Source: Hericium rajendrae (taxonomy: Eukaryota; Basidiomycota; Agaricomycetes; Russulales; Hericiaceae). From it: a stretch of 64,000 nt of DNA. Below the pieces are notes generated by a model that saw only the letters and a list, made by a program, of their open reading frames with translations, had not been told where the DNA came from and did not search any database. Where the stretch lies: NCBI GenBank assembly GCA_033439255.1, contig CM065881.1, positions 1,612,001 through 1,676,000 on the forward strand, written 5' to 3'. Each line of letters opens with the position of its first letter. Position 1 is the first letter of the stretch. Shown here piece after piece: positions 20,133 to 52,782 of this stretch. The position numbers were made by a program, and so were the translations under genes.

Positions 20133-20136
20133 CATT

Positions 20137-20464
20137 GACTTTCGCTGCAACCTACGGGCCAGACAAAAGTGGCCTAAGGCCGTAAGTTACGGACTGGTCA
20201 AAGCCAGCTGGAATCACCGTTTTTGGTCCGTAAGCCACGAACCAGCTGGATTTGGGAATAGACCGTAGGTTACGGGTCGGCTTGCATAGATATGTACCGC
20301 AGTTTACGGTGCAGCTCGGTCACCCATATTTAATGCCTCGCAAACTACGGCCCAGCTCAACTGGCCTCGTCCCTGTCCGGATTCACCAGCCCGGTCTCGG
20401 ACCACTGCATGCACATTCGGACTCGGACTCGGACTCGGATTCGGACTTATATTATTCGGACTAG
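20137..20464 (+). repeat. left terminal inverted repeat of KDZ-2
   Basis: Starts GACTTTCGCTGCAACCTACG and runs through six TACGG-type words (CCGTAAGTTACGG, CCGTAGGTTACGG, CCGCAGTTTACGG, AAACTACGG) to a CGGACTCGGACTCGG tract. It is matched in reverse complement at 52455-52782 with few differences. Confidence 0.85.
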
Positions 20465-20741
20465 GGTTCAGATTCGGACTCGGAATTTCAGATTCTCAGA
20501 TCCTTAGGCCTCGGACTTATGCTCAAATCTGGCTGCAGATTCGGATTCACTCAACGGACTTGGGCCAACCGGTTTCAGCGTGCAATGGACCGGTATACGA
20601 GAATCAGAATACAATTGTATTGTCTGCGGACTACTACTTTCTCAGCCGGACTATCCACACGATGAAGGGAACTACTGATAAACGCGCACGAGAATCTATG
20701 CCTGACTAAATAAAATGTAAATAATGAGAAACTGACTGTGA

Positions 20742-23183
20742 CTACGCACTCTCGACCTGGATCCTTGTGACGTGTGCCACCTGGTCCTTCAACGTGTTCT
20801 GGTCCACCTGGAGGTTTTGCATCTGGCCCTGCAGCACAACGTAGTCCTCCTCCAGGCACTGCTGCCCCAAACTGTTGTCACGTGCGTGAGTCTTGATGAG
20901 CCCTCGGAGCTTGCACACTTCCTCCTTGAGGTCATCAACCTGGCTTTGGAGAGACTGCGCCGTTGACCATGAGCGTTGTGCGAGGTCCCGAATTGAGTGC
21001 AAGCTCACATCACTGGTCAGAGTGACACGACTATTAGAGCTGTTCTTGGCGCCTGGCAATCCTCTAGCTGCAGACGGACTACCCTCTCGGTCCGGGTGAT
21101 GTGGGGGCAGCGTGCGGAGTTTCTTCCCCACAGGAGGTGCAGCAGGAATTGGTTCTGCTCCATCGTCGTCTGTGACAACATATTCTGCGGACTTCGGAGG
21201 GCCTAGAAATATGGTTAATGAGCCCCCATACTCTCGGCGATGGAGTGGATTACCTTTACGTTTCCGTCCCGAGACGTTGGTAGCTCGTTCTGCCGCTTGC
21301 TCCCCGGCTTCCCGCTCCCCGCCTTCTCCGTCGGAACCTCTCTTGCCTGTTCTACGGGTCTTGCCCCGCCCACCTGCCAAGGGACACTTAGCCCGGCGTT
21401 TCCAACACCACCAGCATGCTCCATTCGAATTTTCAGACCGTACGCATCGAGTACCCTTTCGACTACAGGGGGAACAAGGTGGGGACTGAATGAAGACTTT
21501 AGCATGCAGGAACAAACAAGAGAAAGGCAGATATGCTTACCACTACAGGTAGGTCATCTGGGGGCCCATCGGGCATAGGACTCCCTTTACCCTTCTTTCC
21601 CGCTCCGTTACCTGCAGGAGGATCCTGCACGTCCGGAGAGCTCTCCGCTTCGGCGTGATGGGGTCGGTCCAGTTCCTGATCCCCCGGACTGCCTGCCATA
21701 ACCACATCGAGCTGTTCATTATGTGCGACTTGGAGGCCGGACTGGACTGGTGGAGCCGGCGCAGTCAGGGCCAGGGTCGTTGGAGCTCCAGAGGGAATCT
21801 GGGCTGGGATGCGGTGGTCTTCTGTAAATGTGATCGAAGATCCGGATGGCCTCTGCTCGTTTCTCTCCAGAGGATCATCAGTTGTTGCGCTCTGAGTAGT
21901 GCTTAGTGGTGCCGGATGGGGTGCAGATGTGAAACCGACAGGCTTAACGGCCATTTCAGTCGTTGCTAAGATGGCATGTCCCGCGGATTGTACAGCAGGG
22001 GGTCAGATCGGTCTGCTGGTTGACGCAGCAGGTGTCTTTCCACCGTCAACGGACTTAGCAGACCGCACAGACTCGGTAGGAAGGCGTTCTGTGGCCCCAC
22101 GTGATGTTCCCGGGACTGGGGGGGGGGGAGAGGGCACGGTTGTGTTGTGATCCAAATCTTCTGAAACCCACCAATGCTCTGACAATGGAATTCTCCCCAC
22201 ACACTTCGACCAATCATCCCTCCCCTCCGAAAAGGAGTCCACCGTGCCCGCGAAGGTCTTCGGATCCAACAATTTCTTCGCCCTTATGAGACCAACCAAA
22301 TTCCTGCCAACACTCTGGATCAGCGGGGGTAATGCAAATGTCTTGTTCTTGTCCATCACTTTGAGCATTTGAATGATGCAAGATGCTGTGTCCTAACAAC
22401 ATGACCTCAGTAAGCTAAATGTACAACATCAGGAAGGTTGACAACTTTCTGATTGACCTGACAATTTCTAACCCTACTGACAGCTTCTGATTGACCTGAT
22501 CCACCTGAAAGCAATCTTGAGAAGCAAATATCTGATCAGACTTTTACATTCAAGAAAAGACATTTATTGTCAGATATATAAGTTTTTAATCTCTAACTAA
22601 TAGATATATCAAAATCTTTGATATCTGAAATTTTTGAAAATCTGAGAGTATCTGATTTCAAATCTGGAGGTCAAATATCAGTCAGATGGATCAGACAGTG
22701 TCAGACACCATCAGATGCTCTCAGACAGTTGCAGATAATTTTCAGATATTTGACCTCCAGATTTGAAAAAAATCTCAGATCAGACACTCTCAGATTTAGA
22801 AAATTTCAGATATCAGAGATTTTGTTATATCTATTAGTTAGAGATTAAAAACTTATATATCTGACAATGAATGTCTTTACTTAAATGTAAAAGTTTGATC
22901 AGATATTTGCCTGTTAAGATTGCTTTCAGGTAGATCAGGTCAATCAGGAGCTGTCAGTAGGGTTAGAAATTGTCAGGTCAATCAGAAAGTTGTCAACCTT
23001 CCTGATGAAGCTAAAAGCTAGAACAGAACTTACACATTCTTTCAACAATCGGCGGTGCCACCACTCCCGGCGCTTGTTCGACATCGGCTGAATCTCAATG
23101 GCCTTCTTCAAAGCGACCAGGGCACACCCCACACGGGCCTCGTGCAATTGAAGGTTGCCGAGGAGTTCTGAAGTAGTAGTCAT
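20742..23183 (-). CDS. Zn2Cys6-like protein with coiled coil (paralogue D)
   Basis: Start ATG at 23183 (MTTTSELLGNLQ). The first exon ends in RRLLKEC before a GTAAGT donor; intron 1 holds a 581-bp MITE; the acceptor TTGTTAG leads into DTASCIIQMLKVMDKN in frame. Then follow SEHWWVSEDLD, a long Pro/Ser/Thr linker, and after another intron CSPCSRKGTRC...CWWCWKRRAKC, a C-x2-C-x6-C-x9-C-x2-C-x6-C pattern like Gal4-type zinc clusters, with basic residues. The C-terminal ~110 residues look like a coiled coil (SLQSQVDDLKEEVCKLRGL). A TGA lies in frame between SRPI and PPAVQS near 22004, consistent with CGA to TGA. Likely a DNA-binding protein acting in the nucleus. Paralogous to 39561-41114 and 49139-50172. 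Divergent from 23577. Confidence 0.6.
22427..23007. mobile_element. CATCAG-family fold-back MITE, 581 bp, in intron 1 of paralogue D
   Basis: Ends CATCAGGAAGGTTGACAACT and its inverse. The arms are almost complementary over their full length, with TCAGATNNTCTGAGA repeats near the centre. 2-bp direct repeat AA (22425-22426 and 23008-23009). Same length as the copy at 56400-56980 and nearly identical to it in opposite orientation. Confidence 0.9.
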
Positions 23184-27832: not shown

Positions 27833-28107
27833 GATCAGCACGAAGAGCGAGTGGGTTGGGAGACGGGAAGCAGCGGGTGGAAGAGATAGCAGTGAAGAGA
27901 AAGAGGAGGAACAGAGACATATTTATACTACTCATGAGCAGGCGACTGCGAAATGACCTGAGGTCAACACCCGGAATGTCCGTCTGCAGCTTGCAGGAAG
28001 AAGGGTGCAAAGGTGTTGGAAATCCGCCCGGACCAACAGCCCAGACGGCAATGATCTTCAACGTGAAACGTCTACATGGGACCAGTTGTCCTGAGCAAGA
28101 ACACATG

Positions 28108-28270: not shown

Positions 28271-28274
28271 CGAC

Positions 28275-29992: not shown

Positions 29993-32825
29993 TCACCGAC
30001 GTGCAGCAGCCTTCTTTTTCTCCGCAGTCTCCTGTCTCTTCTTGTAAGCAGCGGCATTCTTTTCCCATTGGGCCGTCTGCTCTGGAATGATCCTACGACA
30101 ACAATGATTTTCGAATTTCCACCAGTCAATGACATGGCATACTCACATTGCCATCTTCTTAGTGGGCACCCGTGTGCGGCCGCTCCGCTTGCTGGGAGAG
30201 CCAAGCAGGGCTTCAGACAAGGCGGCTGGAGGGGGTGCAGCCCGGGACGACTGATGCTGTGACTTTTGCTTCTCAGGTGCAGCTGGGGCATCCGATGGTG
30301 ATTGTACCTTTCCCTTCTTCTCGATCTGAGCCCGAGCAGGCAGAGCCTGTTTGTGAATTCTCTTGCTGGGACCAGCAGATGGTGCAGCTGCAGGCAACAT
30401 ATTCTTTCCAGTGGTTTCAGAGTATGCTGTGCGAGCATTCTCTAGATCCTCCTTCATGGTAATGCATTGCGGTTCAACATACTTTCCGAGGTAACGGAAC
30501 GGAATTGTAGAGTTCTGAACATAGTCCGGGACCCCTGCATCAGGCCGACTTTCATCATCAGAGTCCGATGCACCCATCTGTGCAGTTTCAAGATCCCGGA
30601 GCAGTTGCCCATATGCCAAGGCCACCTCCATCAGTGCTGGTTTGCTCAAGATGTCTCCATCGCAATTACGCCAAGGCGTCTTGGGGTCCAATAGCCACTG
30701 TATCTCAGACTTGGGATTCACATTGGCATGAACACGGCGCGGCAACCATGGCCTTGGATAGTCAAATGTAGCTCAGTCAGGATGGTCTGGGTCTGCTGTA
30801 GTGCGATGTCCCTGCTGAAGGTATGATCAAATAACCAACATGACATATATTTTGGGACAGCGTACCCTGCACAATGAGATCTCCAGCACGAGGTCTTGAT
30901 ACAACTGCAGTCCAGAAAGACCGCTGAGGAAGGCAAACTTGGCTTTTTCATTTTTTGCCGAGTTTCCTGGTGTTTTCAGCGGACTGCCATCTGAGTCCAG
31001 ACTGACTTGTGGATCAATCCGAGCCTTGTTTTTGGACTTATTGTTCGAAGGCATGGTCCCCGCACGCCGTTCCCTAAGCTGTTGCAAAGCCTTAGCTTTC
31101 CCAGCATTTGTCACTCGTAGACTGGTTTCCAATGGCGTAACGTCTTCGACATCATCCACATCCTCCTCTTCAGATCTGAAAGAGCCCAGGTCGAAAAACT
31201 CTCCATGTTCGTCGTAACCATTATGATCCTTTGTCCGAGCATTTTTGCGACCCGAGGGAATGCCAACCATCTCGACATCCTTCTCAGCTTCCGCGTCCGA
31301 GACATCCTGAGGGTTGGGCACATCCCGGTCTGCAAACCGCGCTTGAATTTCCTTCCGTCGACGAATCCGGACAGTCTTTCCTCCCCCGGTGTTGCCCTCG
31401 CTGTCGGATGGAATCTCCATCACAGGGGTCCACTCGTCCTTCACGACGACCGCCTTGAACTCTAATACAGTGAGGCCATCGGACTCCCGGTTCTGCCAGA
31501 ATTCGATGATGGGTTTGAGTTCCTGCCTATTAATGCGTGATGGATCTTCCCAAACGTATCCCGTAGGAAGGTACATCGGGTCAATGTAGTTCTCGAAGCC
31601 GTCAGCTTTTATCTTCGCCCAGGGAATTGCCGATGCCTTCGGATTGGCGCGTGCTGATGAATTAATGCATTAGCCGGGCCAAGCATGTTCATCACAGAAA
31701 ATACACACCGTAATGAAAGGTTAGAAACTCCCTTATCAGCGATATCAACAAATCTGGCGTGTATTCTTCGAAATCCGCAGGTATTGTAACACCTCCGTCT
31801 GGATTGTAGATCAACTGTAGAGTTGGTTTCCTGGACTTCTTGACTGCGTGGCCCGGTTCATTGGAATCATCCCGGGACCTTCTGGAGTCAGCACCGCAGA
31901 CCAAAGCATGAAATTCTGCATACAATATAGAGCTTCGGCATAGGATGTCCAGGCCGACATCATTGGCTGCTCATCCCAGTCCTTCACTGCTTCTGCGAGG
32001 GTTGGCCGTCCGAGGTCACCGTTGTAATCGAACCTGGATTCATTCAATATCACTCGACTATGGAAAAGGTTAGATCATACTTCCGGACCACCGCCGTCCC
32101 CTCTTCGTCTAGCCATGTCCCCAGGACCACTACGGACATCCCAAGATGTGACCGCATTTGTGTGGCGAACGACTTGGTGTACTCGCCAGCATGCTTAGAT
32201 GCTTGTCTGCATAGAGACGACATGAGGACAGATACTGGACATACAGCAACAGTACGGACCTGGCCTGCACATCAGGAGGAGCCTCCGTCTTTGTCCACAA
32301 TGCAGCATACTCCTCATATTGGGTCATCTTGTCCGGAGTAAGGTTGTTCATCACCTGACTCACTGCCCGAGAGTAGATCGCAATGTGGGCTTTGCTTCCA
32401 GGCTGCGCACCACCAGATAGTACTTTGGCATGCTCCATGATGGCATCGCGTTCCATGTGCTGGACTACGGCCTTGAGTGTCCATGTTCGGACATACTTAA
32501 ATGAGTCCGCCTTCCGAAGCCGGTGCCTGCCATGTTTTAGCAGCCACTCGTGTATCAACTATATAGCGAAAGTGAGTTAGCAGCGACAGCTCATCAACAG
32601 ATGCAGGCATACCCGCTGGACCCTGGTCAACTCAAGACCCCTGTATGAAAAACGGCCAAAGAATTGACCACCAGGTGCCTTGAGGTCCGTAATGATACGA
32701 CGTCGTCCAGCCTTCCCGGTCTCCTTAAAGGCCTTCAACTGTGTTTTGAGAAAGTCAATCTCGTCCTCCGACAGATCAGTCTTGACAGACTTGGACTTTT
32801 TCTGTGGAAGGGGACCTCTCGGCAT
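29993..32825 (-). CDS. lysine-rich cargo protein of KDZ elements, function unknown
   Basis: Start ATG at 32825 (MPRGPLPQKKSKSVKTDLSE). Exons include 32613-32825, 32260-32558 and a next one from 32206, all with GT-AG signals in frame; the final exon stops at 29993 with EQTAQWEKNAAAYKKRQETA. Blocks: LSGGAQPGSKAHIAIYSRAV, MTQYEEYAALW, FATQMRSHLGMSVVVLGTW, LTFHYG, FENYIDPMYLP, an acidic centre (SDAEAEKDVEMV, SEEEDVDDVEDV), and a basic tail (SPSKRSGRTRVPTKKMA). A frame change near 31920 is either an unrecognised short exon or a frameshift. I know this block order from a multi-copy, uncharacterised Agaricomycetes family. The acidic and basic tracts suggest a nuclear protein. Only ~170 bp separates it from the divergent TET/JBP gene. 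Confidence 0.6.
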
Positions 32826-32997
32826 TAAATTGAAAGTAGGAGGGGCGAACTGAGGGAAGGGGCGGAAGAAGGCAAACTGATCAGCAAATGGATTATAGTG
32901 CAGCGGAACGACATGGACTGACTTTTTTTTTGTTTTTCATGTACGTCCTCAGACATACGGTCTTCAAAGGTAACCAATATGATCCGATCTTTGTCCA
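32826..32997. promoter_or_regulatory. shared divergent promoter region
   Basis: A 172-bp gap between two divergent ATGs (32825 minus, 32998 plus), so the TET/JBP gene and the lysine-rich cargo gene probably share control sequence. It contains a long T-run (near 32923) and no further ORF. This is inferred from spacing only. Confidence 0.4.
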
Positions 32998-34596
32998 ATG
33001 CTGTACAGGCCGAATGAGGAATCCATCACCGGCAATCTCCTGCCGAAGCACATGTGGATAGCCGAATGCTTGGTGACAAACCTCTGCCACATCAAAGACC
33101 GCGACCAACCAGCCTTACTTTCCGCGCTGATCCTCATTTCCGCTCATTCCCCAAGTGAGATGTCCGAAGTCGAAGCAATCTCAATCTATCTGAAACACAT
33201 GTTTCATTGCTATTTGGCTAACCACCAGAAGGTCGACTTTGCCAATCCTGCCCCGATCCCATACTGGATGCTGTCATCCAGCCTGCGCTGCGAGCTGGAT
33301 TATATTGCCCGGGAGTTGGTTGCTGCTTTTCTAAACCGTAGTATGTGTATCAATTTGAAAATGAGATGATTGAAAACTGATGTAACTTCAGTCCGGATGA
33401 CTTGGGATGCACAGCGTTACGCCAGCCGCATTCCGAAGAAATACACCGGACTCAACTCACCAACAGAAGCATCCCTACACCGGCGTTACCCGGGCCTAAC
33501 CTGGGGTACCAACAATACCTCGTGGCCTCTGATTGATGTCCCAATGACGGTCTCGGATACACACACCAATCACCTGGTGTGGTACCTACCAGGTGTGCTG
33601 TCCCTGGAACGACAGGTGGCAACTCGCATTTGACATCACCCGTCATTGTGTTGATCAATTGCTTGTGCAGGCCATCATGTTCAATGCTGCAAAGATCCTC
33701 GAGCCCCTCTTCCAAAGGAGCTGGACTGAAATTTACAGAAAGAATGGGCCGACGAATCCAGGACCAGCAGGATCGGGCATTGTCAAGTCCGCGAAGCAAG
33801 CAGCAGGCTTGAGGTCCAAGGGAACGAGGTCCGAAGCCATGAAGTCTCTGACTCGTCATGCTCAAAACCTTTATCATAATCCGGTAGTCTGCACCTTGCA
33901 TCCTGGCTTTGTAGATTTGTCCCCAGCATGGTTTGCACTCGGCCATGAGGTATGAGACCCTTCCTTCTATCGTCGATGTAGAATTCAGTGTGTACCTGGA
34001 TTTCGCTGTAGGACACTCACTTTCCCCTCTACACGTCTGTCTCCCTCAAGACCCAGCGGGCAAAAGAATGGCTGCTAGCATTCCAGGAATCAGGCGCGAT
34101 CATGAGTGCAATTCTTGGGGTCATATACCCAGAATTACACGAGGCTGGCATATGCACGTTGGAATGGCTCAGAGATATGCCGGAGTTTTGTGAAGTGATG
34201 TGCCACTGGACATCTGCATTTAGTGGTGTCTCGATCATCTCTAACCGGGCCACCATGCCGCATAGAGATATGGGAGGTCGCGCCGAATGGCCAGATCTCC
34301 TGGCGACGATCGGCACATATCCTGATGCAGAACTGCACCTCCAGAATCTCAACCTGAGGTTTGCATACAGGTCCGGGACACTAGCTGCGGTCTGCTCAAA
34401 AATGGTAATCCATGCAGTCCCAGAATGTGAACCGGACAGGGTGTGTTATGCATTTTGGATGAGAGATGCAGTGCACGAGCGCATGATCGTCAAAGCACCG
34501 GACTGGTGCAATGACAGTCAGTTCAACATCCCATCCGAACCCGACGTAACGGACGAGTCATCGCAGACTCACGCATCATTACCTTTTTCATTGTAA
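32998..34596 (+). CDS. TET/JBP-type 2-oxoglutarate/Fe(II) dioxygenase
   Basis: Four exons in frame: 32998-33340, 33392-33615, 33671-33949, 34051-34596, giving about 463 residues with no internal stop. The enzyme family oxidises 5-methylcytosine or thymine bases in DNA, using 2-oxoglutarate and Fe(II). Visible blocks: HLVWYLPGVLSLERQ, HPGFVDLSPAWFALGHE, SAILGVIYPELHEAG, then the double-stranded beta-helix core with VSIISNRATMPHRDMGG (H-x-D iron ligands), LLATIGTYPDAELHLQNLNL, the distal iron His in KMVIHAVPE, and the 2-oxoglutarate-binding Arg region DRVCYAFWMRDAVHERM. The fungal TET/JBP expansion is known to be linked to KDZ transposons, and this copy lies just upstream of a KDZ transposase on the same strand. 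The start may be further upstream if there is an extra exon. Confidence 0.8.
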
Positions 34597-34752: not shown

Positions 34753-37700
34753 ATGCCACCCAGAGTGAAGAAAGGCCGTGGCATACGGATCGTCGTGCAA
34801 GAAGAACTTGAGACTGGGCGTGGAACACGGAAAGTCAGTCGGCCAGCGGCTCAACCCAAGCAAACCAAGGAGGCCGATGATGCCTCATCAGACCGGAATG
34901 GAAGCGGAAAGTGTGCCCGTGCTGACAGAAAGGGTGATTCGTCACGGACTACCCACCAAGGATCTACAGCCAAGGCCGATGGAGCTGCACACGTCTCCCC
35001 AGAAGCTCCGGTCATGACCGAGCAAGACTGGGAGCTGTATCATGCCCAGTCACTTAAACCGCGGAAACCCCGTGTACGTCTCCAGCTTTGGAATTCATTT
35101 CTGTCCTAATATCATTCATGTAGACAGACCGAACATGGCTGACCGAATGGACAGACACCGAAGATGACTACATTCACACGATTCTCCAGGGTGAGGCCCG
35201 AGAGGACACATGTGCCACAGTGCAATGCAAACGGAAACCCGAATGACGGTGCAAGGACTGCTTCTCCAGTCCGCAATTCTGCGCAAAGTGTTGTAAAAGG
35301 TGCCACAGTCATTTGCCATTCCACCGTGTTCAAAAATGGACCGGTACGCATTATGAGCTGGCTTGGCTCAGTGAACTCGGCGTTCTCATATATCTGGGAC
35401 ATGCTGGCTCACGCTGTCCGTCTATTGCTGAGAATGGCCATGATTCAGATAGCGCAGAATCCAGGACGACTGTTTCTTCCGGGATGACTCCTCGACCATC
35501 CAGCCATTCTATTCAAGACCCGAACCATTCATTCACAGCATTCCGTTCACCATCAAGTTCTTCCTCCTGAGGCCCTTCACCCCCTGCCATGAATGACATC
35601 CTATCAGGTTCAGAGGATGGGTACTCAGAGATCGGTAATTCAGAAGTTGTGTCACGGGCTGCTACGACTTGTCCGCCGTCTCCAAGTGAATTGACTACCA
35701 CCAGCAACACCAGCAGGTCACATATCCGGTCAGTCTTAGAGACCGTCCATGTTGGTAGAGACCACCGGAAGGAGAAAGAAGGGACCATTTCTACTGTGAC
35801 TTCCCAGGAACCCCACATTGATGACTCTGACACTGATACTCCAGCCACATCCATGCATTTACTCCCCAATCGTCACATCACTAGTACTCATGGAGACACA
35901 GGAGATATTGGACGATCAGCCGGGCTGGTGTCCGATGTACTTTCAGAATCTGAGGCTGAGTCACTACCAGCTGCCTCCAAATCCATGCGCGGCCGCCTCA
36001 TCACACGACCTCATCACAGCCGACAACCATCCCCATCACCACCCACACCCTTATCATCAACCCGAAGGATGACTACACGCTCACATAATGGAGCTCAGTC
36101 CAACGACGACCACCGAGGACCGGGGCCCAATTGTAGGACACCAAGTCCGGTGCCTACCATCCACTTTGACGAGTTCCAACGTGCTTCTGCCTACATGGCG
36201 AAGACTGAACAGGAAGCCATAGAATGTGGTGTCTTCCAGAAGGACCGGCCATGTACGCTAGCTGCGAGCCTCCTTGATGACGATGATTATGTCCATGAGG
36301 ATGATGGAGACACCGATTGGGAGCATGTCAATGAGGAAGATACCTTGGCGGAGGCTGAACGTCAGGCCCGGAGTCAGAGGCTCCATGCTAGCGAAGATAC
36401 ACCGGATTATATCCTGACCATTGTTGATCGGTCCGGAGTGCACGAATTAGGAGTGGTGAACTGCTATTGCTCTACTGATGAACCACTGCACCGTCAACTC
36501 CTTCGGAGCAATCTATTTCCAGCATCATTCCGTTGGCCCCAGACTGCGTTCACATTCCAGGTGTTAGAAGACTGTCGTTTGGACAATCTTGAATGCAAAA
36601 CCTCATTTTTCCAGTTCTTCGGAAAGCTCCGTCGACTAACCAACCCTGCCTTTCCGGATTCGGTTCCTGTTGCGTTGCATGCCTTAACAGTTCTCTCATT
36701 GGCACTAACACATTCTCATAGGACTGTTATCGGGAACTTATGCGGTCTCTGCGGGTATGGAGGCACCTGCAGTATATGCGATGGCATGGTTTCGGTCATT
36801 GCACTGACATGCCAGGAAATGGAGACTTGGCATTATTCTGTCCCACATGTCCTCAACCAGGAGAAAACATGCTGCCTGAAGACCAACTGTGAGTCCATTA
36901 TTTCCCATCCAGTTCTCTTTGTTGACTGCTGGTTTTCAGTGACCTCGATGCATGTATACAAATGCAGGATGGCAACTTTACTGCCCAGCTGGAGAAGATG
37001 AGAAGACCGGACAACGATTTCGCTTTGAGCGATGGCACCGGGTTCATGGTCGAGAGCAAAAGATACCATCAACATCTCCGCAGCAATCGGGAGGTCAGGC
37101 AAGAGGTGCAACTAAGTAGCATATTGCATTATGTGGTCGGTAACCGTTTTGCCTGCAACAGCGATCCACATGCAATGACCACCACGCGGTGAATCAAGCC
37201 AATGCCCGGAAGAGTAATTTATACTCATCCGGTTTGGGGTCCGCTGCCTGCATGCATGGGGCATTTATACCACACACGACAGTGGACTTTCAAAAGGGTG
37301 AACGGTAGGTGTATCTCTCTGTCAGTCCACAAAGATAATGTTGTGCTGACAGATAGTCTGCAGTCAAGTCAATATGGATTACTCCGTCTGCCAAGGGTTG
37401 GGGTACAAGTCGCAAGGTCTGACTACAGCGAGACTCTTGTATGACATCGCTTGCCAGTGGTTTGTCAATTTCTACTCACGTGTGGACCGGAGCGAATTTT
37501 TGGAACTACCTCCGGACATGGAAATTATATCCGGTATTGGTCTTTTCCACATCCACGGTCACCGGCAAGAATGCCTCGCTCGGTTTTCACCAACGTTCAT
37601 TCCGGGCGCACGCCAGGTAGATGGGGAGATATTGGAGACATTGTGGGCTCCTTTGAACGAGATCTCACGAAGTACGAGAGGGATGTCTATCTCTCACAGG

Positions 37701-39265
37701 AGGGAGATTTTGGATGATCACATGAATGACTCAAATTGGAAGAAGCTTGTACACAGCGGTATGCATGTTTCGATCATTGTATGAGCTCCCTGACCAGTAC
37801 TGAAAGTCGGGAGCAGTGAAGTCATTGTGCAAGAAGTGGAAGAAGTCAGCAACAGGTCTCGAGATTGCTGAGACAGCATTCGCAGATTTTGATCACACAG
37901 TGCCTGACGACGTCCATGATGGATGGAAGAAGATAGAAGAGACTGCACAGAAGAACCGCTTACGGGATATAAAAGCAATGGACGTATATGATCTGCAGAT
38001 CGACGGACGTATGCTCCCAGCCATCCTCAGCCTGGAGAACAATTGCTAATGTCATAGACAGTACCAGGAAAAGCGGAAATGGAAAACCGACTTGTGGCTG
38101 CAGTGGAGTCTGACAGGCTTCGTGGTTGCGCTGCATGGATTCACTCGGGACTCAAGATAGAAGAGGCTCAGTGCGTTGTCCGATTTACCATTCCTTTATT
38201 CTGACGAAGCCAATGGTCATGCTAGGCTACAGCTGGCAGCATACGTCCGAAGCGTTGGTAAAACTGCTACATTAAACCAGCAGAACACCATCGCAGAACG
38301 ACGACGACGGCTGCAGACCCAAATTGATCAGTTTGAACGGCGGAGTCTGCCTTACATGTCCGAAGGCGAGGATTGGATCCCCGGATTCACTATCAGACGG
38401 ATGATCGATGACGGCGCCGAATATGATGAACTATGGGAGGACGTCCGCACTGAATATTCGAGACCTCTCATCGATGACGATGCAGCAATTCTGCCAGAGC
38501 GCGTTGCCCTTCCATTGCCCTCCACTGTGGGAAAGGCACTGGCCACTACTCATGGACTTCACGGCGTGTTGGAACAGGAAATTGACCTTCGGATCGGGCA
38601 AATGAACGATGCGCTTAGTCAGCTCCATATAGCTCTCAGCGAGAAGGCATTCCAGTTCCGGATGAAGGTGCGGGCGGCCCGCGGATCACAACGAAAGCGG
38701 ACAAGGGCTTGGGCAGATATTGAGACTACGGACAAGGTTGTCCAACAGCAGTGCCGTGTCTACAACCAAGCACGATGTGCTCTAAACAGCCTTGGGCTTG
38801 CAGATTCTGACACATTGAAGACTTATAAGGTCTTGCACCGGTCGGACTTATGGGCGCAGACATTTGTCATTGACTCAAGCATGCGGGGATCTCGTAATGA
38901 ACCTCTTTCATGGTTCTGGAGACTGGGACGGAAAGGCGAGAATGACAGTAAATGGACAATGGAATGTGGGTCCGGTCTGCTGCATTCAACATGATCCCTG
39001 TCACTGATGGAGAATTGTAGTTTATCGTGTTCACTGGCTACGGTCTCGGGCCCAGATGAAGCAATGGCGTGCGGAGCGGGAAGCCCTTCCAAGGGAGATG
39101 GCACGAACGATCAATTACTTCACCAAGAGGGCAGAACGGTGGGGAAAATGGAAGGCCAACAACACAGATCCAGGGCACCAAAGCTATGCCTCCAGACAGA
39201 TGGCACTCTGGATTAGCATGGCCAATCAGGCAGAGAGTGCATTTGCAGAGGCATTGGCACAATAG
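34753..39265 (+). CDS. KDZ transposase of KDZ-2 (probably inactive copy)
   Basis: Start MPPRVKKGRGIRI. In order: a CxC2-like cysteine cluster (CKDCFSSPQFCAKCCKRCH, LPFHRVQKWTG), VVNCYCSTDEPLHRQLLRSN, FPASFRWPQTAFTFQV, LECKTSFFQFFGKLRRLTN, DCYRELMRSLRVWRHL, ALFCPTCPQPGEN, QDGNFTAQLEKMRRPD, ARLLYDIACQWFVNFYS (first catalytic region, about 37450), FHIHGHRQECLARFSP, VDGEILETLWAPLNEIS, ILDDHMNDSNWKK, and the C-terminal helical region (KRTRAWADIE, SWFWRLGRKGE, VHWLRSRAQMKQWRAERE). About ten introns with GT-AG signals keep the frame. Oddities: in-frame TGA codons near 35249 and 35568 (both fit CGA to TGA), and a frame change near 38175. A different lineage from the KDZ-1 enzyme. Confidence 0.85.
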
Positions 39266-39560: not shown

Positions 39561-41114
39561 TCACACAAATTCCAGGTCTGCTGAACTCGCCCGAGACATC
39601 TCCGCAAGTAGTGCTTGCAGATCAACCTCTGACGGGGGTTTGGCGGCCTGAATGCGCCCTTGTGTGGGTTCTTTCAGGATCTCTACAAGCAATGTTAGAA
39701 GGAAGGGGAATGATATGTACACACATACCGACAATGACCTTGTTAGCCGCAGGCTTCCTGGGACGGGATGGGCCGGCAACGCTCGAGGAGCGGGAGGCAG
39801 CCGGATGCTGTGATTTGGATATGGATCCTGAATGCCTCCCCCGGTGTTGTGCTGCATTCCAGGCCCTACGATTCTGAGGTGTGTTGTGGCTGCAACGCTC
39901 CCGACGGATGTCACAACCGATACAGATATTTGGATGGCCCTCTTGGGTGGCACAGCGGTCACCGTGTTTCACGCAGCCATTGCATCGAAATGGCTATCCA
40001 GAACTCAACTGTCAGGAGGGGGATCATCGGACAAGGAGATCCACCCACAAAAGGAATCTCGGTTAGGTACGGGTTGTACCAAGATTTCTTACTGGGCTGG
40101 CGCCGCCGATTATACAGGCCAAATTTGGGCGGCGGAGACGGTTTTCGGAGTACTTCGCGTGGCCGAAGACCAGACCGCTGCATTGAACGACCCACCGTGA
40201 CCGCCCTAGATGCGAATGTCGATGCAGATTGTGATGCGGGAACAACATCGGGATGCAGAACCTGACTTTCCGTGGAACTGGCCAATGAATGATAGGGCAG
40301 CTTGTGAACCATGCGTGACCGAGGAGGGCCAATCTTGGCACCGGGGGGGAGGCCTGACTGGCTTTCCTCGGTTTCCTCGCTCTCTTCGCCTGAACAAGCA
40401 CATCGTCAGTAGACTGATTATATGGGGAAACTGTAAGGGATACATGCGGGCAGGGAGCATACCCAGGTCGGACAATGACTGCATTGCTGGAGCGTCACAG
40501 GCTGGTCTGGTGGGGGGAGTCATTCCCTGATTTGTCTCATCCCCATTGCTGCACCACAAATTGACAAACCAATCGACGAGGGAGTCCGGAGTCGAATAGC
40601 GGACGGCATCCTGTGCAGGGACAAGTAATTCCGCTATCAGGGACAATGTCAGGCTACATCCTTGCAGATTACAATAGCGAGCTTATGGTTCTCCCACCAG
40701 CGCAGGCCCAAATCCATATTTTGCGCCTTGACATTCAAATTGCGATCCTGAGGATCAAGAAAGCTTGCGAGCTGGCGTAGATTGAATAAGCCCTCCGGGT
40801 CCGTCTGGCTCTGCAAGAAGTTGAGGTAGCGGGCTGTGTGGCGCATATACCCGGGGGTCAGCATCATCATTTCCCTGACACCTGCCTCCATGGCCGACTC
40901 CCTGATCCTCTTTGCTGAGACCTGAACATAGTTTAGCAACGTGGAGACCAGTGAATTGAAAAGAGCATACCATTTCTTTTGTGAATTCTGTTTGCCAGGC
41001 ACGCCGTGCATGCTCTGACAACCGAACAGGTGCTCTGCTAGCAGCATGAAGTGCGAGCCCAACACGCACCGACAAGATCAAGTAGCTGGCATTCAGAACG
41101 TTGACACTGTCCAT
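39561..41114 (-). CDS. Zn2Cys6-like protein (paralogue A)
   Basis: Start ATG at 41114 (MDSVNVLNASYLILSVRVGL). Intron 1 ends in TTCAG and leads to VSAKRIRESAMEAGVREMMM. Then DPQDRNLNVKAQNMDLGLRW and WENHKLAIVI, a linker with GLRPREVLRKPSPPPKFGL, and CNGCVKHGDRC...CIGCDIRRERC, the same C-x2-C-x6-C-x9-C-x2-C-x6-C pattern as paralogue D. The last exon ends EVDLQALLAEMSRASSADLE. An intron or frame change between the linker and the Cys cluster (about 40000-40090) is unresolved. A Gal4-like cluster suggests DNA binding, possibly to the many TACGG or TCCGGA words of the element (inference). Divergent from the gene at 41603. Confidence 0.6.
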
Positions 41115-43524: not shown

Positions 43525-45509
43525 ATGTCAACCGGATCAAGTTTCCAGATCTTGAGGCAAGTCCGGCGGGATCTTTCATCCATCAATGTTTGAATTACTG
43601 ACTACTCGCATCCCCTTCCAGGATTCCTGTACACCCTGACCCAGTTGATATAGAACAGCAGCGAGCTGCCATTGACGAGGAGCTAAACCAGCTACTCCTC
43701 CTCACCCTCGATGCTCGTGCCCGGCGAAACAGATTATCACCCCTGATCCGCATCCCCACCGAAGTGTGCACGCGCATAGTTCATTTTCTCGCTGCCAACC
43801 AGCGGTCGGGTCCCAAAGACCTAGGGTGGGTCAATGTCACCCATGTCTGCCGCACTTTGAGATCCAGGGCACTCGAGGATCCAAGCCTCTGGACTACCAT
43901 CAGCGACGGACTCCGTACGCCATTGCGAAACGCAATGGTCATCTGGTCCCGGTCTCTGCCCCTCTCTTATTCTATCACCTACACCAGATGGAACCCCCCT
44001 ACCTTGGATACTGTCGAGCTGCTCTCCAGAACAATCCATCGCATCCGTGACCTTTCCCTCCAAAACTTTTTTGTCAGCAGCATGCAAAACCTCTGGCCAT
44101 CCATGGCCCATCCAGCCCCGATGATTGAATCGGTGATTTATGTGCTCCCTAGATGGTCCTCCTATCAAGGTATCAATATGCTCCCCGCTGACCTCTTCGA
44201 CAATCATGCTCCATTGCTACGTAAGATGATGCTTCGTTGCATCGTCCCGGTGTGGTCCGGGAGTATTCTACGTGGTCTCACCAATCTCCACATTAATAAT
44301 AAATCCACCCGATCAGATCTGCTAAATATTGATCCTGACCACAAGATTATTTTCGACCATCCATCGGACTATGTAGCATCTGAAGAGGCACCTCCTGTTG
44401 CTCCACCCAGCGTCAACGCTTTTAGAGAGATGCTCGAAGCTCTCGGTCAGATGTCCAACCTTCAAATGCTGTTTCTCTCCCACTGCTTCCCTCCTCTCCC
44501 CTCCCCTCCTCCCGTCGTGCCTGTGGTCACATTCGGTTCTCTACAAAAATTCACATGTCAGGACAAATCATTCCTGCACATGGCGCATGTCATCAAGCAC
44601 ATCACTGTACCTCCCTCTTGCAATATCCTCATCCTCGGCGATCACCCTCAGGCCGGCGAATTTGCCCCACTCACAACATTCATTGATAGCCACATCTCAC
44701 CCCATCCCCTGAGCATGCGCATCGGTTTTATCTCTTATAACCTAGCCTGGGACATCTACTTATCAGGATATCCTCCCTTCTCCGATCACACCGGCCATCC
44801 CACCTTTGACCCAGATCTCCCGAACATCTCGGTTGTCGTGTACGCCAATACCGATGGGTATGACGATGAGAGACCTCCAGAGAGGCGCCCCATGATAGAG
44901 GACCTCAATCATGTCCCAAGCACAGAGACCAAACGTCAGATACGGCATCTTGTTCTGGACTTTGGAGAGGACCACGGTTTGGAACACTGGGACAATTACA
45001 TCATCGAGAAGATCACTTTTCGCGACTGGCTCTCTGGTTTCCATGCCTACACCGGCATTGAAACCATCGCGGTGCAGGGCGACAGTGGCCGTACGCTCTG
45101 TATGGCTTTAGCCGCACCCCGCTCCTTTATGCCCCCTCCTCCGGAGGAAGATGAAGTCGAGCCGATCACAATCCTGGACTCAGATGAAGTCGACGAGGTC
45201 CCAATGCCAGACTCGTTCCCGCACCTCTTCAGAAATCTATTACGTATCGAGTTCATGGAAGTCGATTTTAATACAAGTTACCCCAGGCCTCGGGATAGTC
45301 CGTGGTCCATATATGAGGTTTCTCGTCCTTCCTATGCCATTGGCTACATTCTCAAGCAATCCCTGTCCCATCGCTATGCGGTATTTGGGACACGGCTCAC
45401 TCTCGTCATCAAGCATTGCACAATCACGATCAACCAGGTGAAGGAGCTGCGAAGCCTTGCAGATGTAGAATGGGACTATCTGCAGTCTCCGTTGACAGGA
45501 GAGGATTGA
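43525..45509 (+). CDS. F-box / LRR-like protein, copy 2
   Basis: Exon 1 43525-43556 (MSTGSSFQILR) and exon 2 43622-45509, joined by a GC-AG intron (GCAAGT...TTCCAG), give about 639 residues. Clear paralogue of 24735-26697: DIEQQRAAIDEELNQLLLLT, then LSPLIRIPTEVCTRIVHFLA, LGWVNVTHVCRTLRS, SLWTTISDGL, LRKMMLRCIVPVWSGS, an acidic insert (EEDEVEPITILDSDEVDEV) and YAIGYILKQSLSHRYA. Exon 2 is 1888 bases in both copies. It would act as an SCF ubiquitin-ligase receptor if expressed. It appears intact. Confidence 0.85.
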
Positions 45510-45578: not shown

Positions 45579-46545
45579 TCACGCATCGCCGAAAGGAACT
45601 CCCTTCTCACTTATGATGTAAACATTGAGCATTCCTCCAAGTAAGAGCTCACCCCTGTTGCCTTGCCGGTGACCCCCGCATAGTGCCAGCGGGGTGACCA
45701 GTTCAATACATGAAAGTAAGTAATCAATCCTGGAGCGACGGGCAGCTTTGCGAGCCTTTCGCTTTGGTATACCAAACACCGGTGGCGGGGCTGGCCTCCG
45801 CAGGGTAGCATGAGGACGAAGGCCATCTCGGACCAATGCGTGGTCAACCGGTGTGCTGTCCCGTGCACGGTCAGAGACTCTGCACGGTATCGGGACAATG
45901 GGTGCAGGCCGAGGGTGTTACAGTCCAGGAGCAAGCAATAGCTCTGTGGTGCGAGGCATGGAATAGGGGTGTCGAGTTGGTGCGGGGTGTCGAAGACATC
46001 ATGAGATGCGGGAATGTGTCGATTGCAGGAGCTTCATCTGGGGCGCTGGTTGCGGTACTCGCCTCGCGTTTCGCGGCTTTGTATCCCTCCCGGTATGTGT
46101 CATTTCTGCCTTCTTTCCTCCCCATCATTATCCCTGCTTCTAGTCCTTCCTCCCAGACCCCATACTCTGCCTCTTTGCATATGTGCATGAGGAAGTCAGT
46201 GTCGATCTCATCGATTGACATGGCGAGTGATGCGGGGGTGCTTACCTCAAGGCTACCCTGCTTAGTGCACTCGCTCGGACCCTCCTCATGACGCGCGCTC
46301 CGTCCTGCCTTCGTGCTTCCCACCAACCCCTCACACCCTCGCGAAACCTGACTTTCGCCCAGCCATCAGACCTGCCTCGTAGCCGTTCTGGATCGCGGTG
46401 GTGACGATGTCGTTGTGGAGCGTGCGATCGACGAAGTCCGGCTCAGACTCTGGTGATTCGTAAGTGGCAGCCGTATGGGGCTCACCCAGTTCGATGCCAG
46501 TCGTCGGCGGTTTCACGTCGTTGTGCGTGGGTGCGGGGCATTGTT
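45579..46545 (-). pseudogene. remnant paralogue B with GRKEG-type repeats
   Basis: Minus-strand pieces: NGYEAGLMAGRKSGFAR (46331-46516), MSIDEIDTDFLMHICKEAEY plus GVWEEGLEAGIMMGRKEGRN (within 45871-46326), and near 45730-45836 a segment GLRPHATLRRPAPPPVFGIP like the 3' exons of paralogues A and C (GLRPREVLRKPSPPPKFGL; GLRPLAALRRPAPPPVFGI). No Cys cluster is visible and I cannot assemble one convincing gene. Probably a decayed or recombined relative of the same family. Confidence 0.45.
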
Positions 46546-47330: not shown

Positions 47331-49138
47331 GACTCGCTATGTGACGCGGTCAGTCTCTTTCATCGAAATGAACCGAGGGGAAGGTGGACAGACCAGGAGC
47401 TCGAAAAACAAATTTTCGTTGCCCGGACATGTGGCTTTCAGGCCCCGCGGTGAGCAGCAGTCACACTCCGAAGATGAAGTGCTCATCGTCGTGGTGAGCG
47501 GTGGCGACACTGGGCGTATGTTCGCACGTGCTCGCAGGGCACGTCATGGAGTTAGAAGTAAAGATTGGGGGGAGGAGGCCTTTGCGCACGGGGATAATGT
47601 GGTACTCACCTCGTATTCCCGCTCTGCCAGTCCCCTCTTGCGCGGCACTTTCGAAATCCATACATCCGCTGTGCCGTCGCATTGCTGTCCGCCTGAGCAC
47701 CTTGAGCTAGACATCTCGAGGGCATCATCGTCAAGTATGTGGAGGCGGGACGCGTCTTCGCTCGTGGCGCCCGCTCTCTGCTGTTAGCGCGTGCACCAGA
47801 ATGGCACCATTGTGGGCGCTCTGCGATGCCCGGGCGTGCTGAGTACGGGTCATGTCTGTGATTCGGGCGTCATGCGCTCCAGCTGGACATCGAGCGCGAT
47901 GTGGTTTCCCAGCGTCCGTTGCATGCCCTGCACACTCTCGCATTCTTGAATCCTTCGACATCACGTTCTATCCTCTCGATGACGCTGCTCACGGTGTGCA
48001 TGTGTTCGAATCGGACTGGAGAATGTGGTGAGTGCCGCGTGCTTCATTCTGAGAAGGCGGTCTTGTTTACCATTTCCCCTTTGCGTACCCTACTGATCTT
48101 GCTCGCCTACAGACTCTGCGCCTGATCGCATACCCTTCCGCAGGACCAGTCTGGAGTGCCATCCGCCAGTTCCAAACCGAAGGCGTCATCGTCAAGTTAG
48201 ATGCGTGGATCTCATCTGGCATTCAGTTTCTGGCTGCTTTCGTCGCGCTTTTCGATCTCCCATGCGCTGACGCCTTTCCCGGATGAGCCGGTTCGGAGTT
48301 CGGCTGGATTCGACACCATGAGTGAGTTGTACTTTGCTTCGCGGAATGGGATCTTGCTTACCATTTCTCGTGCACATAGCCTGCCGATCTCGCTCATCCA
48401 CCGACTCTGCCCCTGCGCCCGCGTCCTCGAGCGCCATCTGCCAGTCTCGCGCACAGCTCCATGGCATGCCAAGGGCATCATCGTCAAGTTCGAGAGGCCG
48501 CGCCTTGCTTGCCATGCAACCGCCGGGCATCACGTCCTTTCCCACACGGGTGTTGGACGTGTTCGGGGGTCGTTTGTGTGCGCTCGCTCTCGCGGTTCAA
48601 AGCGGACTGGAGGGGGGAGACTGGCGAGCACTGTCTTCGTGGGCACGCGATGCGTTTGCGGGGGTCCAAAACGCGCCGGTCTTCACCGGACCACCAGACT
48701 GGTGGGTAGAGTTGCAGGGACTTGCGAAGGGACAGGACTGGGGGCATGGTGCTGATTAGCACTGGTCATGTCATCTGCGCGGACTCCACGGTGGTCCCCG
48801 GGCTCGTTGGCGGGCATATATGGGCGTGTGATGGGGCGGAGCGGGGCGGGCATGTTGTTCAATGTCTCGGCATGCATATGCGATGCAAGAGGGGTGGGGT
48901 GCTTACCTGAGGTACGTGTCCTCCCTGCATGTTGCTCGCGGTGTGCTCACCTCCGTACATGGCCCAAGGCCGCTCTGCGACTCGTTCTCCACGGCGATGG
49001 GATATGTTGCATGACAGCTTAATGTGCACGAGTCGTTGGGTCGGGGGAGAGGTTTTGGATGCGGGATAGGTCGTGTGGGGTGCAGGATATGGGTGAATTA
49101 TGATAAATGCCTAGCTACTATTACATGCAAGAAATTAA
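47331..49138. other. GC-rich region with diverged internal duplications, no secure gene
   Basis: The word GGCATCATCGTCAAGT (or GGCGTCATCGTCAAGT) recurs near 47723, 48186 and 48475. TTGTTTACCATTTCCCCTTT / TTGCTTACCATTTCTCGTGC and GACTCTGCGCC / GACTCTGCCCC are shared by the blocks around 48060-48240 and 48350-48500. Frames on both strands look like repeat products. It may be a decayed tandemly duplicated gene. Confidence 0.45.
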
Positions 49139-50172
49139 TCAACCCTGGAGCGACCGGCGGCTTTGCGCATCGGCCGCTTCGGTATACCGAACACGGGGGG
49201 CGGGGCTGGCCTCCGCAGTGCAGCAAGCGGTCGAAGACCCTCTCGGACCAATGAGCGGTCGACCGGCGTGTTGTCCGGCATGCGTGCAGAGACTCCGCGC
49301 GGTGCCGGAACAACGCGCAAAGGCTGGGGCAGCCGCCCTCCGGAACTCATCATTGCGGGTCGCTGCCGCTGCGCGGAGGCATGAGATTGATGTCCCATGT
49401 CGACATCCGGAGGCGTGCGACCCACAGCAGGCTGGTCCGGCTGGTCTGAGCGGTGCGATGTCAGTATAAAAGCAATGACAGAAGAGTTGAGGAGGGATAC
49501 GTACTACTGGTAGCGCGATGCCCTTCATATTGCAGAGACTCCGGCGACTCTGCAAACAACCCGCGCCAGGCGTCAGCGTTGATGGGGCCTGCGAGCGTGA
49601 GCTCCGGAGGAGGGAGGGTATAGGCGGAGGGGTGGGATCATATATTGGATAGACCAGGTCTTGTGGAAGGTGAAAGATGGGGAAAGATGCGTCAGAGATC
49701 TGTACTGTGATGGACATCAGCTGACGCATTTGTTCATGACAATCAGGAACGCACCATCCTCCCACCAGCGATGACCACAGAACTGCTCCGACCTTGCCAT
49801 CCAGTATGACGGACTGAGACCATCGATATATGCGTAATCGGAGAGCGCGTGGAGATCGACGTTCTCGGGCCGCATGGACGAGAGGACTCGCATGGTGTTG
49901 CGCATGAACGAGGGGACGGGGACTAGTGCGGTCTCCTCGGACACGTTGGCCGTGCTCGCTCGAATGGCGTCGGCATGCTCCTACAAAGCACTGAATAGAA
50001 GCGGAGATGGTAGCCAAGGGTGACACACCAAACACTGGATGAAGCCATGCACCCAGGCGACATGCATGCCCGGAGGCATCAACGGGGATGTTGCCCTTGC
50101 AGCAACAAGACCAAGACCGACCGAGTCACAAGCAGCGGAGTACGCTGCATTGAGGTCCGCAATGGAAGACAT
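49139..50172 (-). CDS. paralogue C of the cargo family (no Cys cluster)
   Basis: Start ATG at 50172 (MSSIADLNAAYSAACDSVGL). An intron (GTGTGT...TTGTAG) leads to EHADAIRASTANVSEETALV, then VDLHALSDYAYIDGLSPSYW, CGHRWWEDGAFLIVMNKC, a Pro/Ser linker and a final exon with GLRPLAALRRPAPPPVFGIP ending at 49139 (KAAGRSRVD). The N-terminus aligns by eye with paralogues A (MDSVNVLNASYLILSVRVGL) and D, and RWWE matches A, but I find no Gal4-like Cys cluster here. The DNA-binding part is therefore lost, diverged or in an exon I missed. Divergent from the gene at 50526. Confidence 0.55.
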
Positions 50173-50525: not shown

Positions 50526-52206
50526 ATGCATGGTCTGTCGTCTGTGAGTGTTAGGGAGGCCCATCGTGCAGAATGTCCTTGTCCAATGCCCTGCCACACG
50601 ACCGCTTCTCGCTCTTCCACAAGCGTAACGTTCAACTGGACGACTCTCCGGGCCGCTGTTGAGAGTATGGAATATCGGATTGGAAGAGATCTTGACGACG
50701 TGGCAGATGCGGGGATGGTAGACAGGCCGTGGTGCTTCGCTCGCATTTGCAGTGACGCAGTAAGTGTCTATGCTATCTTCCAGCTACGTACACCCTGACG
50801 CGCATCGCAGGTCGTCATCGAAAAGGCGATTGCAGAAGTCAAGCGCCTCGAAGCTAGCACTCGGATTGACCGTCCCTCAGGTGGGAAATGCATCTTGGAG
50901 AGTTTCCCCCCTTTGCTCATCAAGGTTGCGGAGTGGTACAAGACTTGTTATGGTGGAGGCAGTGGGGTGATGCTAGCACCTGATGGAACCATTGTAGAGT
51001 CACTCCTACGGGCAGTGGAGAGGTTCCGGATGTCGAGGGGAGGGATCAGACCGACGACAATGTTGGAGGGAGGACAAGGTAATGACTTTGTTGTATGTTC
51101 CTTGTTCTGCACTGATTTCAGATTTAGGCCCTGCAGCTCCAGACAAGCGTCAGCATGGGGATAAGGAGGGCCTAATTGCAGTGGAGGATAAGCTGGGCAA
51201 TGAGGATAATGGATCAACTCGCAAAGGTGTGTTGTCTCATAGTAATCTTGTATTGCACATTAACAGCTGTTGTGTAGGAAGTCCACAGGTCATCGGGAGT
51301 GGAGACGTGTTAATGCCGACGATGCCTATAGTACCGGCAAAGAGGCGGAATTGTGAACCTGCACTCCAACGACCGCCGCCGCCCAGTGCGATCACTGGCA
51401 GAGCATTCCACGGGCCAATCGTCCAGAGTCGTTATCTCTGGGCTAGCAGTCCGAGCTCTCTGCCACACGACAACATCGATCCGAAGACCGCCCCGGGAAA
51501 AGGTTAGTTCATGTATCATTTCCGTTGCATGATCTCATCGGTTTCAGATGTACCTATGGTGTGGATCCAGGCCAAGGCCCAATCTTTAGTACAACTTCAG
51601 ATGCGGACCGACAAAGACCGAACTGGTGCGGGTAGCCGAGCTTCTCAGGAGTGCCAGTCGGCACCTGGTCCATCTAACGTAGGGACGACCACTCCGGAGC
51701 TCAGCCGGTACGAAAGAGGCAACGTCACAGCTTCTTATGGCCAAACCGGCTTGGTTAACATGAATATGCTGCATGACATTGACCAGCACATCAAAGGGCT
51801 GCATAAGAATGTTGATCATGTGTCCATGCAATTGGAGAAAGGCCTTCAGCAGTATTCCCTAGCTGTAGAGCAGGGCAACGTCATCCTCAATCGCATAGCT
51901 TCTCTGGAGCAGAGTGTGACGGTGATGAGATAGGAGCTGAAGGAGGGTATGAAGGATTTGGAGGACAAGCTCGACGATGTCTCTCGACAGGTTGCCGACT
52001 TAGAGTGTGAAGTCCCTGGTTTGTCTGACGCTCTCTCGACTCTTCGGCAGGACCATGATGACCTGTCTGAAGAGGTCCAACATCGGTTTGACACAGTCGC
52101 AGACCAATTCAGCTGGGTCAACACTCATATGCCCCTTCCTACTGACGAGTTTTCGACGGACTCAGAATTGGGAGAATCCTCTGATAGCAACGTTGGAGAT
52201 AAGTAG
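50526..52206 (+). CDS. coiled-coil protein, partner of paralogue C
   Basis: Starts MHGLSSVSVREAHRAECP; exon 1 ends at 50759 and exon 2 begins at 50811 (VVIEKAIAEVKRLEAST in frame). Later exons read LGPAAPDKRQHGDKEGLIAV, a Pro-rich part with PSAITGRAFHGPIVQSRYLW, then VPMVWIQAKAQSLVQLQMRT and MNMLHDIDQHIKGLHKNVDH. The C-terminal ~150 residues are a strong coiled coil (ELKEGMKDLEDKLDDVSRQV; LSTLRQDHDDLSEEVQHRFD). A TAG stands in frame between TVMR and ELKEG near 51933, so this copy is probably damaged. Divergent from paralogue C with ~350 bp between starts. No named family. Confidence 0.5.
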
Positions 52207-52454
52207 TTCATATCATTGATCTGTGCATTCTTTTTGTGTCTGTCCATGAGTCCGAATCTGCTGTATTCCAAATTTCTGTACCAGTCCGAATCTATTTTTT
52301 CATTCCCAGTCCGGAAATTTGTCAAGAGCTGAAGCATTGGAATTTGAATCCGGTACTTCAATAATCCGATGTTTCAGCCCTCTGGTAGTCCGGTAGTCTG
52401 GATTACCGGTAATCCAGTCATCCGGTGAACTAAGAGTCCGGTAAAGTGAGAATC
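52207..52454. other. subterminal spacer of KDZ-2
   Basis: Non-coding DNA between the last gene and the right inverted repeat, rich in AGTCCGAAT/TCCGGT words. It includes CTGGATTACCGGTAATCCAG, a perfect 20-bp palindrome near 52397-52416. Confidence 0.6.
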
Positions 52455-52782
52455 CGAGTCCGAATAATACAAGTCCGAATCCGAGTCCGAGTCCGAGTCC
52501 GAATGTCCATGCAGTGGTCCGAGACCGGGCTGGTGAATCTGGACAGGGACGAGGCCAGTTGAGCTGGGCCGTAGTTTGCGAGGCATTAAATATGGGTGAC
52601 CGAGCTGCACCGTAGACTGTGGTACATATCTATGCAAGCCGACCCGTAACCTACGGTCTATTCCCAAATCCAGCTGGTTCGTGGCTTATGGACCAAAAAC
52701 GGTGATTCCAGCTGGCTTTGACCAGCCCGTAACTTACGGCCTTAGGCCACTTTTGTCTGGCCCGTAGGTTGCGGCCAAAGTC
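52455..52782 (-). repeat. right terminal inverted repeat of KDZ-2
   Basis: Inverse counterpart of 20137-20464, with the TCCGAGTCCGAGTCCG tract on the inside and GGTTGCGGCCAAAGTC at the outer edge. Then CACAC and the direct repeat CATTGACT at 52787-52794. Confidence 0.85.

Follow-up and report, generated by a model that had tools for sequence, protein, structure and literature searches.

A 32.7-kb insertion in Hericium rajendrae that is very probably one KDZ-group transposon with the ends of TET-carrying Kyakuja elements

A stretch of 64,000 nucleotides from Hericium rajendrae (assembly GCA_033439255.1, contig CM065881.1, positions 1,612,001 to 1,676,000 of the forward strand; hereafter the window, numbered from its first letter) holds at 20124-52795 what is very probably one large KDZ-group DNA transposon of 32,672 bp, with the terminal signature of the TET-carrying (TET+) Kyakuja type. 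It shows the hallmarks of a KDZ transposon (KDZ domain, CxC cluster, terminal target-site duplication, or TSD) and those of TET+ Kyakuja (a 7-bp TSD with CA..TG ends and an AG-type TET/JBP dioxygenase gene), except that it has terminal inverted repeats (TIRs), which two described Laccaria families of that type lack. A preliminary description of this DNA had proposed that a pair of long inverted repeats encloses a KDZ transposase, a TET/JBP dioxygenase, F-box and Cys-cluster paralogues and a lysine-rich gene, all moving together; our analysis adds the true termini and the TSD, the dyad array within the TIRs and the identity of the block at 22427-23007, a miniature inverted-repeat transposable element (MITE). 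The find indicates that KDZ elements with a TET gene can exist as complete units of 32.7 kb with defined ends, some three times the size of the 9-11 kb KDZ elements cited below, and it links long TIRs to the type with CA..TG ends and 7-bp TSDs.

The evidence that carries this reading lies at the ends. The inverted repeats described earlier (20137-20464 and 52455-52782) are real and were placed to within 5 bp: in blastn, 20136-20469 aligns without gaps to the reverse complement of 52450-52783 over 334 bp (323/334 identities, 97%), and a repeat search extends the match to 348 nt at 95%, with arms 31,980 nt apart. The true termini lie 12 bp outside these repeats and read 5'-CA...TG-3'. A scan of symmetric offsets up to 40 bp from the TIR ends found a perfect 7-bp TSD, ATATAAT, at 20117-20123 and 52796-52802. 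The same scan at random flank positions gave a 7/7 match in 1.2% of 40,000 draws; with CA..TG also demanded, the frequency was 2.5e-5 at random flank pairs (40,000 draws) and 0 and 1.5e-4 when one real junction was paired with a random one. Among asymmetric offsets up to 40 bp, no other CA..TG pair had a TSD match of at least 6/7. The first TSD candidate, an 8-bp direct repeat at asymmetric offsets (CATTGACT, chance 1.3%), was dropped because the symmetric ATATAAT with CA..TG ends was found. That both repeats belong to one insertion as its ends, and went in together, is supported because the TSD is perfect, sits at symmetric positions and adjoins CA..TG tips. Long inverted repeats by themselves would also suit the ends of two different copies, or two solo elements, that lie in opposite orientation around host genes. 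This we regard as extremely improbable: neither arm is itself bounded by terminal inverted repeats (lengths of 7-12 bp tested), the TSD and the tips are symmetric around the pair, only one KDZ gene was found among the ORFs scanned with Pfam, and the flanks appear to continue a single host repeat.

The last of these points has weaker support than the TSD. The left flank (19456-20116) is a 307-bp tandem repeat array that stops at the insertion point, and the repeat appears to continue beyond the element: after the right TSD, 23 of the first 40 bases match the 307-bp unit at the predicted phase, a length picked after viewing 30, 40, 60 and 80 bp, and none of 9300 flank 40-mers did as well. Of 574 phases, the two predicted ones come second and third. 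Yet another phase scored higher (24/40), and identity to the unit is only 0.41-0.42 over 80 bases. When the right flank from 52784 was aligned locally, with gaps, to the 307-bp units, the score lacked significance (it was reached by 35 of 500 shuffles and exceeded by at least 8 of 69 control stretches), and a gapped alignment anchored after the true end was weak, being matched by about 10% of controls. Because the length was chosen post hoc, identity drops and the gapped alignments are not significant, we take flank continuity as support, not proof.

Between the ends, the proposed transposase and dioxygenase genes were both borne out by Pfam. The Pfam scan covered 77 of the 100 open reading frames (ORFs) of at least 100 amino acids (aa) that overlap 20.0-53.0 kb, and shorter exons within spliced models. 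The CxC2 cluster (PF18803) scored 73.2 bits on 35571-36998 (plus strand) and precedes the transposase core, whose KDZ domain (PF18758) is covered from position 4 to 217 of 217 at 154.9 bits within 310 aa of the spliced model. This 1070-aa model, free of internal stops, has nine exons (35589-36662, 36722-36888, 36940-37093, 37162-37304, 37364-37758, 37817-38008, 38068-38170, 38226-38965 and 39021-39265), with provisional borders because a neighboring splice choice is likewise open and one 5' splice site is non-consensus. The dioxygenase gene matched the TET/JBP domain at 66.7 bits, and its 463-aa model aligned to CcTet over residues 96-443 (E 4.1e-29); an alternative splice model has six exons and 526 aa. 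The protein keeps the HRD (the HxD motif) and the downstream His that complete the triad, and has Gly and Asp at the places of CcTet Gly331 and Asp337 (residue names as in PMC12730594). It is predicted to oxidize DNA methyl marks (methylcytosine). Taken together, the kinship with CcTet and the CxC2 cluster suggest an Agaricomycete-like host.

The founding paper on TET and KDZ is reportedly that of Iyer in 2014. Among described systems, the closest terminal match is with TET+ Kyakuja elements of Agaricomycetes, which have 7-bp TSDs and CA..TG ends (Kojima, 2025, PMC12730594); TSDs are 7 bp long in Kyakuja and 8 bp in Zisupton and Dileera, as far as the available part of that paper goes. The likeness extends to the pairing of a KDZ transposase with an AG-type TET/JBP gene, whereas F-box genes go unmentioned in the same part of its text on TET+ Kyakuja. 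The active KDZ1, KDZ2 and KDZ3 elements of Cryptococcus (PMC12810828, available in part) have 9-11 kb, TIRs of 139-241 bp and TSDs of 4-8 bp; they share with our element a KDZ transposase with a CxC cluster and long TIRs, but are smaller, carry CxC1 and not CxC2, and come with no mention of a dioxygenase in that part of the text. In Pleurotus ostreatus, a CxC2 cluster precedes all intact KDZ transposons (PMC7641404, in the part available), as CxC2 precedes the transposase here, and in Marasmius oreades the TIR motifs of KDZ and Plavaka elements are characterized in a supplement (PMC8290104, likewise in part). Neither of these two sources, in that part, gives an element size, TIR sequence or cargo, and long TIRs may be less unusual than PMC12730594 alone implies.

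The TIRs themselves are dense in a short motif. CCGTA/TACGG half-sites number 8 in the left and 7 in the right TIR; the interior averages 0.30 per 334 bp. In 5000 mononucleotide shuffles, the left TIR never reached 8. All four exact CCGTA-N3-TACGG dyads of the window fall within the TIRs, as do eight of nine degenerate ones (up to two mismatches; 1.0 expected), and a TCGGAC hexamer array lies on the inward side. We read the half-sites and dyads as putative protein-binding sites. Because each exact dyad contains two CpGs, they may also be targets of methylation and of the TET enzyme, and they offer concrete, testable sites for the anti-silencing role proposed for transposon TET enzymes.

The remaining genes (Table 1) bear out the earlier cargo list in part. 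Both F-box paralogues are present (44% identity over 654 aa in BLASTP, 49% in alignment), though only the right one comes near the Pfam F-box-like cut-off (24.1 bits against 24.3). Over 608 codons, a simple Nei-Gojobori count gave the pair a nonsynonymous rate (Ka) of 0.46 and a synonymous rate (Ks) of 1.22, with Ks near saturation in parts; the resulting Ka/Ks below 1 points to purifying selection. A PDB sequence search with the F-box ORF returned nothing at E 1, and AlphaFold models of the pair (mean confidence, pLDDT, 36) were too poor for a fold search. As for the Cys-cluster paralogues, two motifs stand in open frames (21384-21476 and 39892-39984), the only occurrences in six frames of the window of C-X2-C-X6-C-X9-C-X2-C-X6-C, a spacing that we take to be the Zn2Cys6 rule; 100 dinucleotide shuffles of the element gave none, and a looser pattern a mean of 0.01. 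A PPPxFG region is common to three minus-strand genes near 40.2, 45.8 and 49.2 kb, and only the 40.2-kb gene shows a cluster. For one Zn-cluster ORF, AlphaFold gave a pLDDT of 53, with only the C-terminal helices fairly confident, also too poor for a fold search. The lysine-rich gene, divergent from TET, was found as an open spliced model, and the Pfam scan of 553 of the 766 residues gave no match above cut-off (best DUF4028, 18 bits against 25). The model at 50.6-52.2 kb gave only coiled-coil matches in Pfam, all under cut-off. In 62 of the scanned ORFs there were two weak matches, Yae1_N (0.00076) and BORCS6 (0.0081), which we take as chance or coiled coil. Rfam and tRNA searches returned no matches.

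Table 1. Features of the putative KDZ-group element, in window coordinates
Feature	Position	Strand	Remark
TSD, left copy, ATATAAT	20117..20123	.	Symmetric-offset scan and random-position control
Left tip, 5'-CACACAATACAT	20124..20135	+	Inverted imperfectly relative to right tip
Left TIR, 334 bp	20136..20469	+	8 CCGTA/TACGG half-sites, then TCGGAC hexamer array
ORF with Zn2Cys6-like motif (21384-21476) and C-terminal coiled coil	20745..21536	-	Open frame
Fold-back MITE, 581 bp, CATCA..TGATG ends, 2-bp TSD AA, PlavakaB-like	22427..23007	.	Later insertion, not cargo
F-box-type gene, left, single exon, 639 aa	24735..26654	-	Paralogue of 43602-45509; no own Pfam F-box match
Lysine-rich protein gene, 766 aa, many exons, borders uncertain	29993..32940	-	Open spliced model
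TET/JBP dioxygenase gene, CcTet-like, HRD...H retained	32998..34596	+	4-exon model, 463 aa
KDZ transposase gene, CxC2 cluster and complete KDZ domain	35589..39265	+	9-exon model, 1070 aa
Gene model, 306 aa, Zn2Cys6-like motif (39892-39984) and PPPxFG region	39561..40717	-	Exon borders uncertain
F-box-type gene (ORF), right	43602..45509	+	Pfam F-box-like, 24.1 bits
PPPxFG paralogue, ORF fragments, no Cys cluster seen	45582..46365	-	
PPPxFG paralogue, ORF fragments, no Cys cluster seen	49138..50172	-	
Weak gene model, 404 aa, coiled coil at end	50586..52206	+	
Right TIR, 334 bp	52450..52783	-	7 CCGTA/TACGG half-sites
Right tip, CACCATTGACTG-3'	52784..52795	-	Terminus scan and control
TSD, right copy, ATATAAT	52796..52802	.	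Symmetric-offset scan and random-position control

The preliminary description also proposed that the whole set moves as one unit. What stands is that the repeats bound one insertion, as the TSD and the tips attest; the block at 22427-23007 is a later insertion and not cargo. Its CATCA..TGATG ends and 2-bp TSD length are PlavakaB features (PMC12730594, in the part available). A second copy of this MITE at 56400-56980 (97.6% identical, TSD TG) lies within a neighboring Gypsy element, and both 581-bp copies are devoid of CpG. From this single copy of the large element, it is likely that all of the cargo is grouped in one mobile unit, and we infer that the element is mobile today. We consider it possible, if somewhat unlikely, that the element arrived as a smaller TET+ KDZ transposon (about 29.9-39.3 kb) and gained length afterward, so that the F-box, Zn-cluster and coiled-coil genes would be passengers of this one copy, host genes or other elements that were inserted or duplicated between the TIRs at a later time. 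The MITE is at least one such later arrival, the cargo duplicates are old (F-box pair, 44-49% aa identity), and the published KDZ1-3 have just 9-11 kb (PMC12810828, in the part available); but the interior is fairly even in composition apart from the MITE and changes at the element ends, both F-box frames are open and have a Ka/Ks below 1, and the 77 scanned ORFs hold no other transposase domain, other TSD-bounded blocks not having been searched for. Constraint on the F-box genes would also suit a domesticated host locus, with immobile KDZ and TET genes that serve the host. This we hold to be very improbable: the locus retains its TIRs, its TSD and an open transposase gene, which fits a transposon better.

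In composition, the interior without the MITE has a GC content of 0.51-0.56 and an observed/expected CpG ratio (CpG o/e) of 0.73-0.99, both of which shift at the element ends. The ratio is 0.80 for the interior as a whole and 1.02 and 0.93 for the TIRs; it falls to 0.52 and 0.40 in the flanks next to the element and to 0.31 and 0.36 in a further two AT-rich stretches, and the young Gypsy element has 0.83. The element is thus distinct in CpG o/e from its flanks, not from the whole window. Such a pattern would suit a fairly recent arrival as well as protection from methylation decay or just ordinary coding DNA, and does not discriminate among the three.

Beyond the flank alignments, several observations weigh against the view that 20124-52795 is a single KDZ-group transposon with ends of the Kyakuja type. 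The two Laccaria families of TET+ Kyakuja lack TIRs, whereas ours are 334 bp long and 97% identical, and the available part of PMC12730594 does not state whether TIR absence defines the lineage. The 8-bp TSD of other KDZ lineages is absent (best match 6/8 in the symmetric scan). The TSD vouches for the ends only, and cargo genes may have joined afterward, like the MITE. Completeness of the KDZ domain means profile coverage, the catalytic residues not having been checked individually. The left F-box copy has no Pfam F-box match and is assigned by its 49% identity to the right one, while Pfam Zn_clus matches neither Cys cluster at E 1, so that only the Cys spacing fits Zn2Cys6. The shorter motif CCG-N7-CGG is itself not TIR-specific (6 of 20 window matches lie within the TIRs), and the far left of the window has a CpG o/e of 0.82, as high as the element. 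Finally, no second copy, empty allele or relative turned up in the sequence collections scanned, which are not fungal (viral contigs for KDZ, TET, a TIR 25-mer, the F-box ORF and a lysine-rich ORF; genome contigs for KDZ).

For a single KDZ-group transposon, the parts suggest how it might work. The transposase would bind both ends, probably via the repeated CCGTA/TACGG dyads of the TIRs, and would integrate the element with a staggered cut of 7 bp, the length of the TSD observed. Judging from its family, the TET/JBP enzyme would oxidize methylcytosine, such that CpG-containing ends and genes are spared silencing. More speculatively, the Zn2Cys6-like proteins are candidate co-binders of the TIR dyads, and the F-box-type proteins are candidate adaptors that would recruit host proteins for turnover. 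The DNA binding and possible protein turnover ascribed to the cargo by the preliminary description remain, in this sense, suggestions drawn from sequence. They could be combined into a giant KDZ transposon with its own control layer, in which methylatable CCGTA-N3-TACGG dyads in the TIRs would be read by the element's own Zn-cluster proteins and transposase, the TET enzyme would keep them open and the F-box proteins would remove host silencing factors. Such a combination, if true, would amount to a self-contained module for anti-silencing and transposition, comparable in scale to a small Starship and residing in a Basidiomycete. We judge it decidedly unlikely, and it is weakened by the absence of one Cys cluster from the gene models: automatic models at 20634-22368 splice through or around 21384-21476, and the cluster at 39892-39984 sits in an exon.

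Starships are large elements of Pezizomycotina with a tyrosine-recombinase captain and many passenger genes. The likeness of our element to such giant cargo-bearing transposons, raised earlier, is one of concept only, both being sizeable fungal elements with numerous passengers. In place of a captain it has a KDZ transposase, together with TIRs, and no tyrosine-recombinase Pfam domain was found in the 77 scanned ORFs. The element raises the possibility that cargo-carrying transposons beyond the Starship group exist in Basidiomycetes. In the literature searched, which excludes most subscription papers, no KDZ element with F-box cargo came to light and, by title, no giant or cargo-bearing one; papers naming both KDZ and F-box include ones on fish fusion genes and a Ganoderma Pfam list, and others on sheep and a cnidarian.

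Other repeats lie within and around the element. Inside it, 28102-28260 is a 40-bp tandem repeat in four copies that adjoins ORFs resembling the ends of long interspersed nuclear elements (LINEs), without Pfam support; a LINE fragment at 28.2-29.8 kb, suspected from sequence motifs, was rejected, having no Pfam support. To the right, 0.9 kb away, a Ty3/Gypsy element with a chromodomain spans 53693-61375; its 423-bp long terminal repeats are 100% identical and its TSD is 5 bp (ATACA), and it is probably a very recent insertion. Outside its two ends are 137-bp inverted repeats (53043-53179 and 61386-61522; 87% identical). To the left, 8460-12437 holds the arms of a large inverted repeat (87-93% identical) along with tandem repeats of 42 and 144 bp, and its CpG o/e is 0.31; direct repeats of about 490 bp at 14983-15473 and 18937-19418 (94% identical) are built of AT-rich tandem units.

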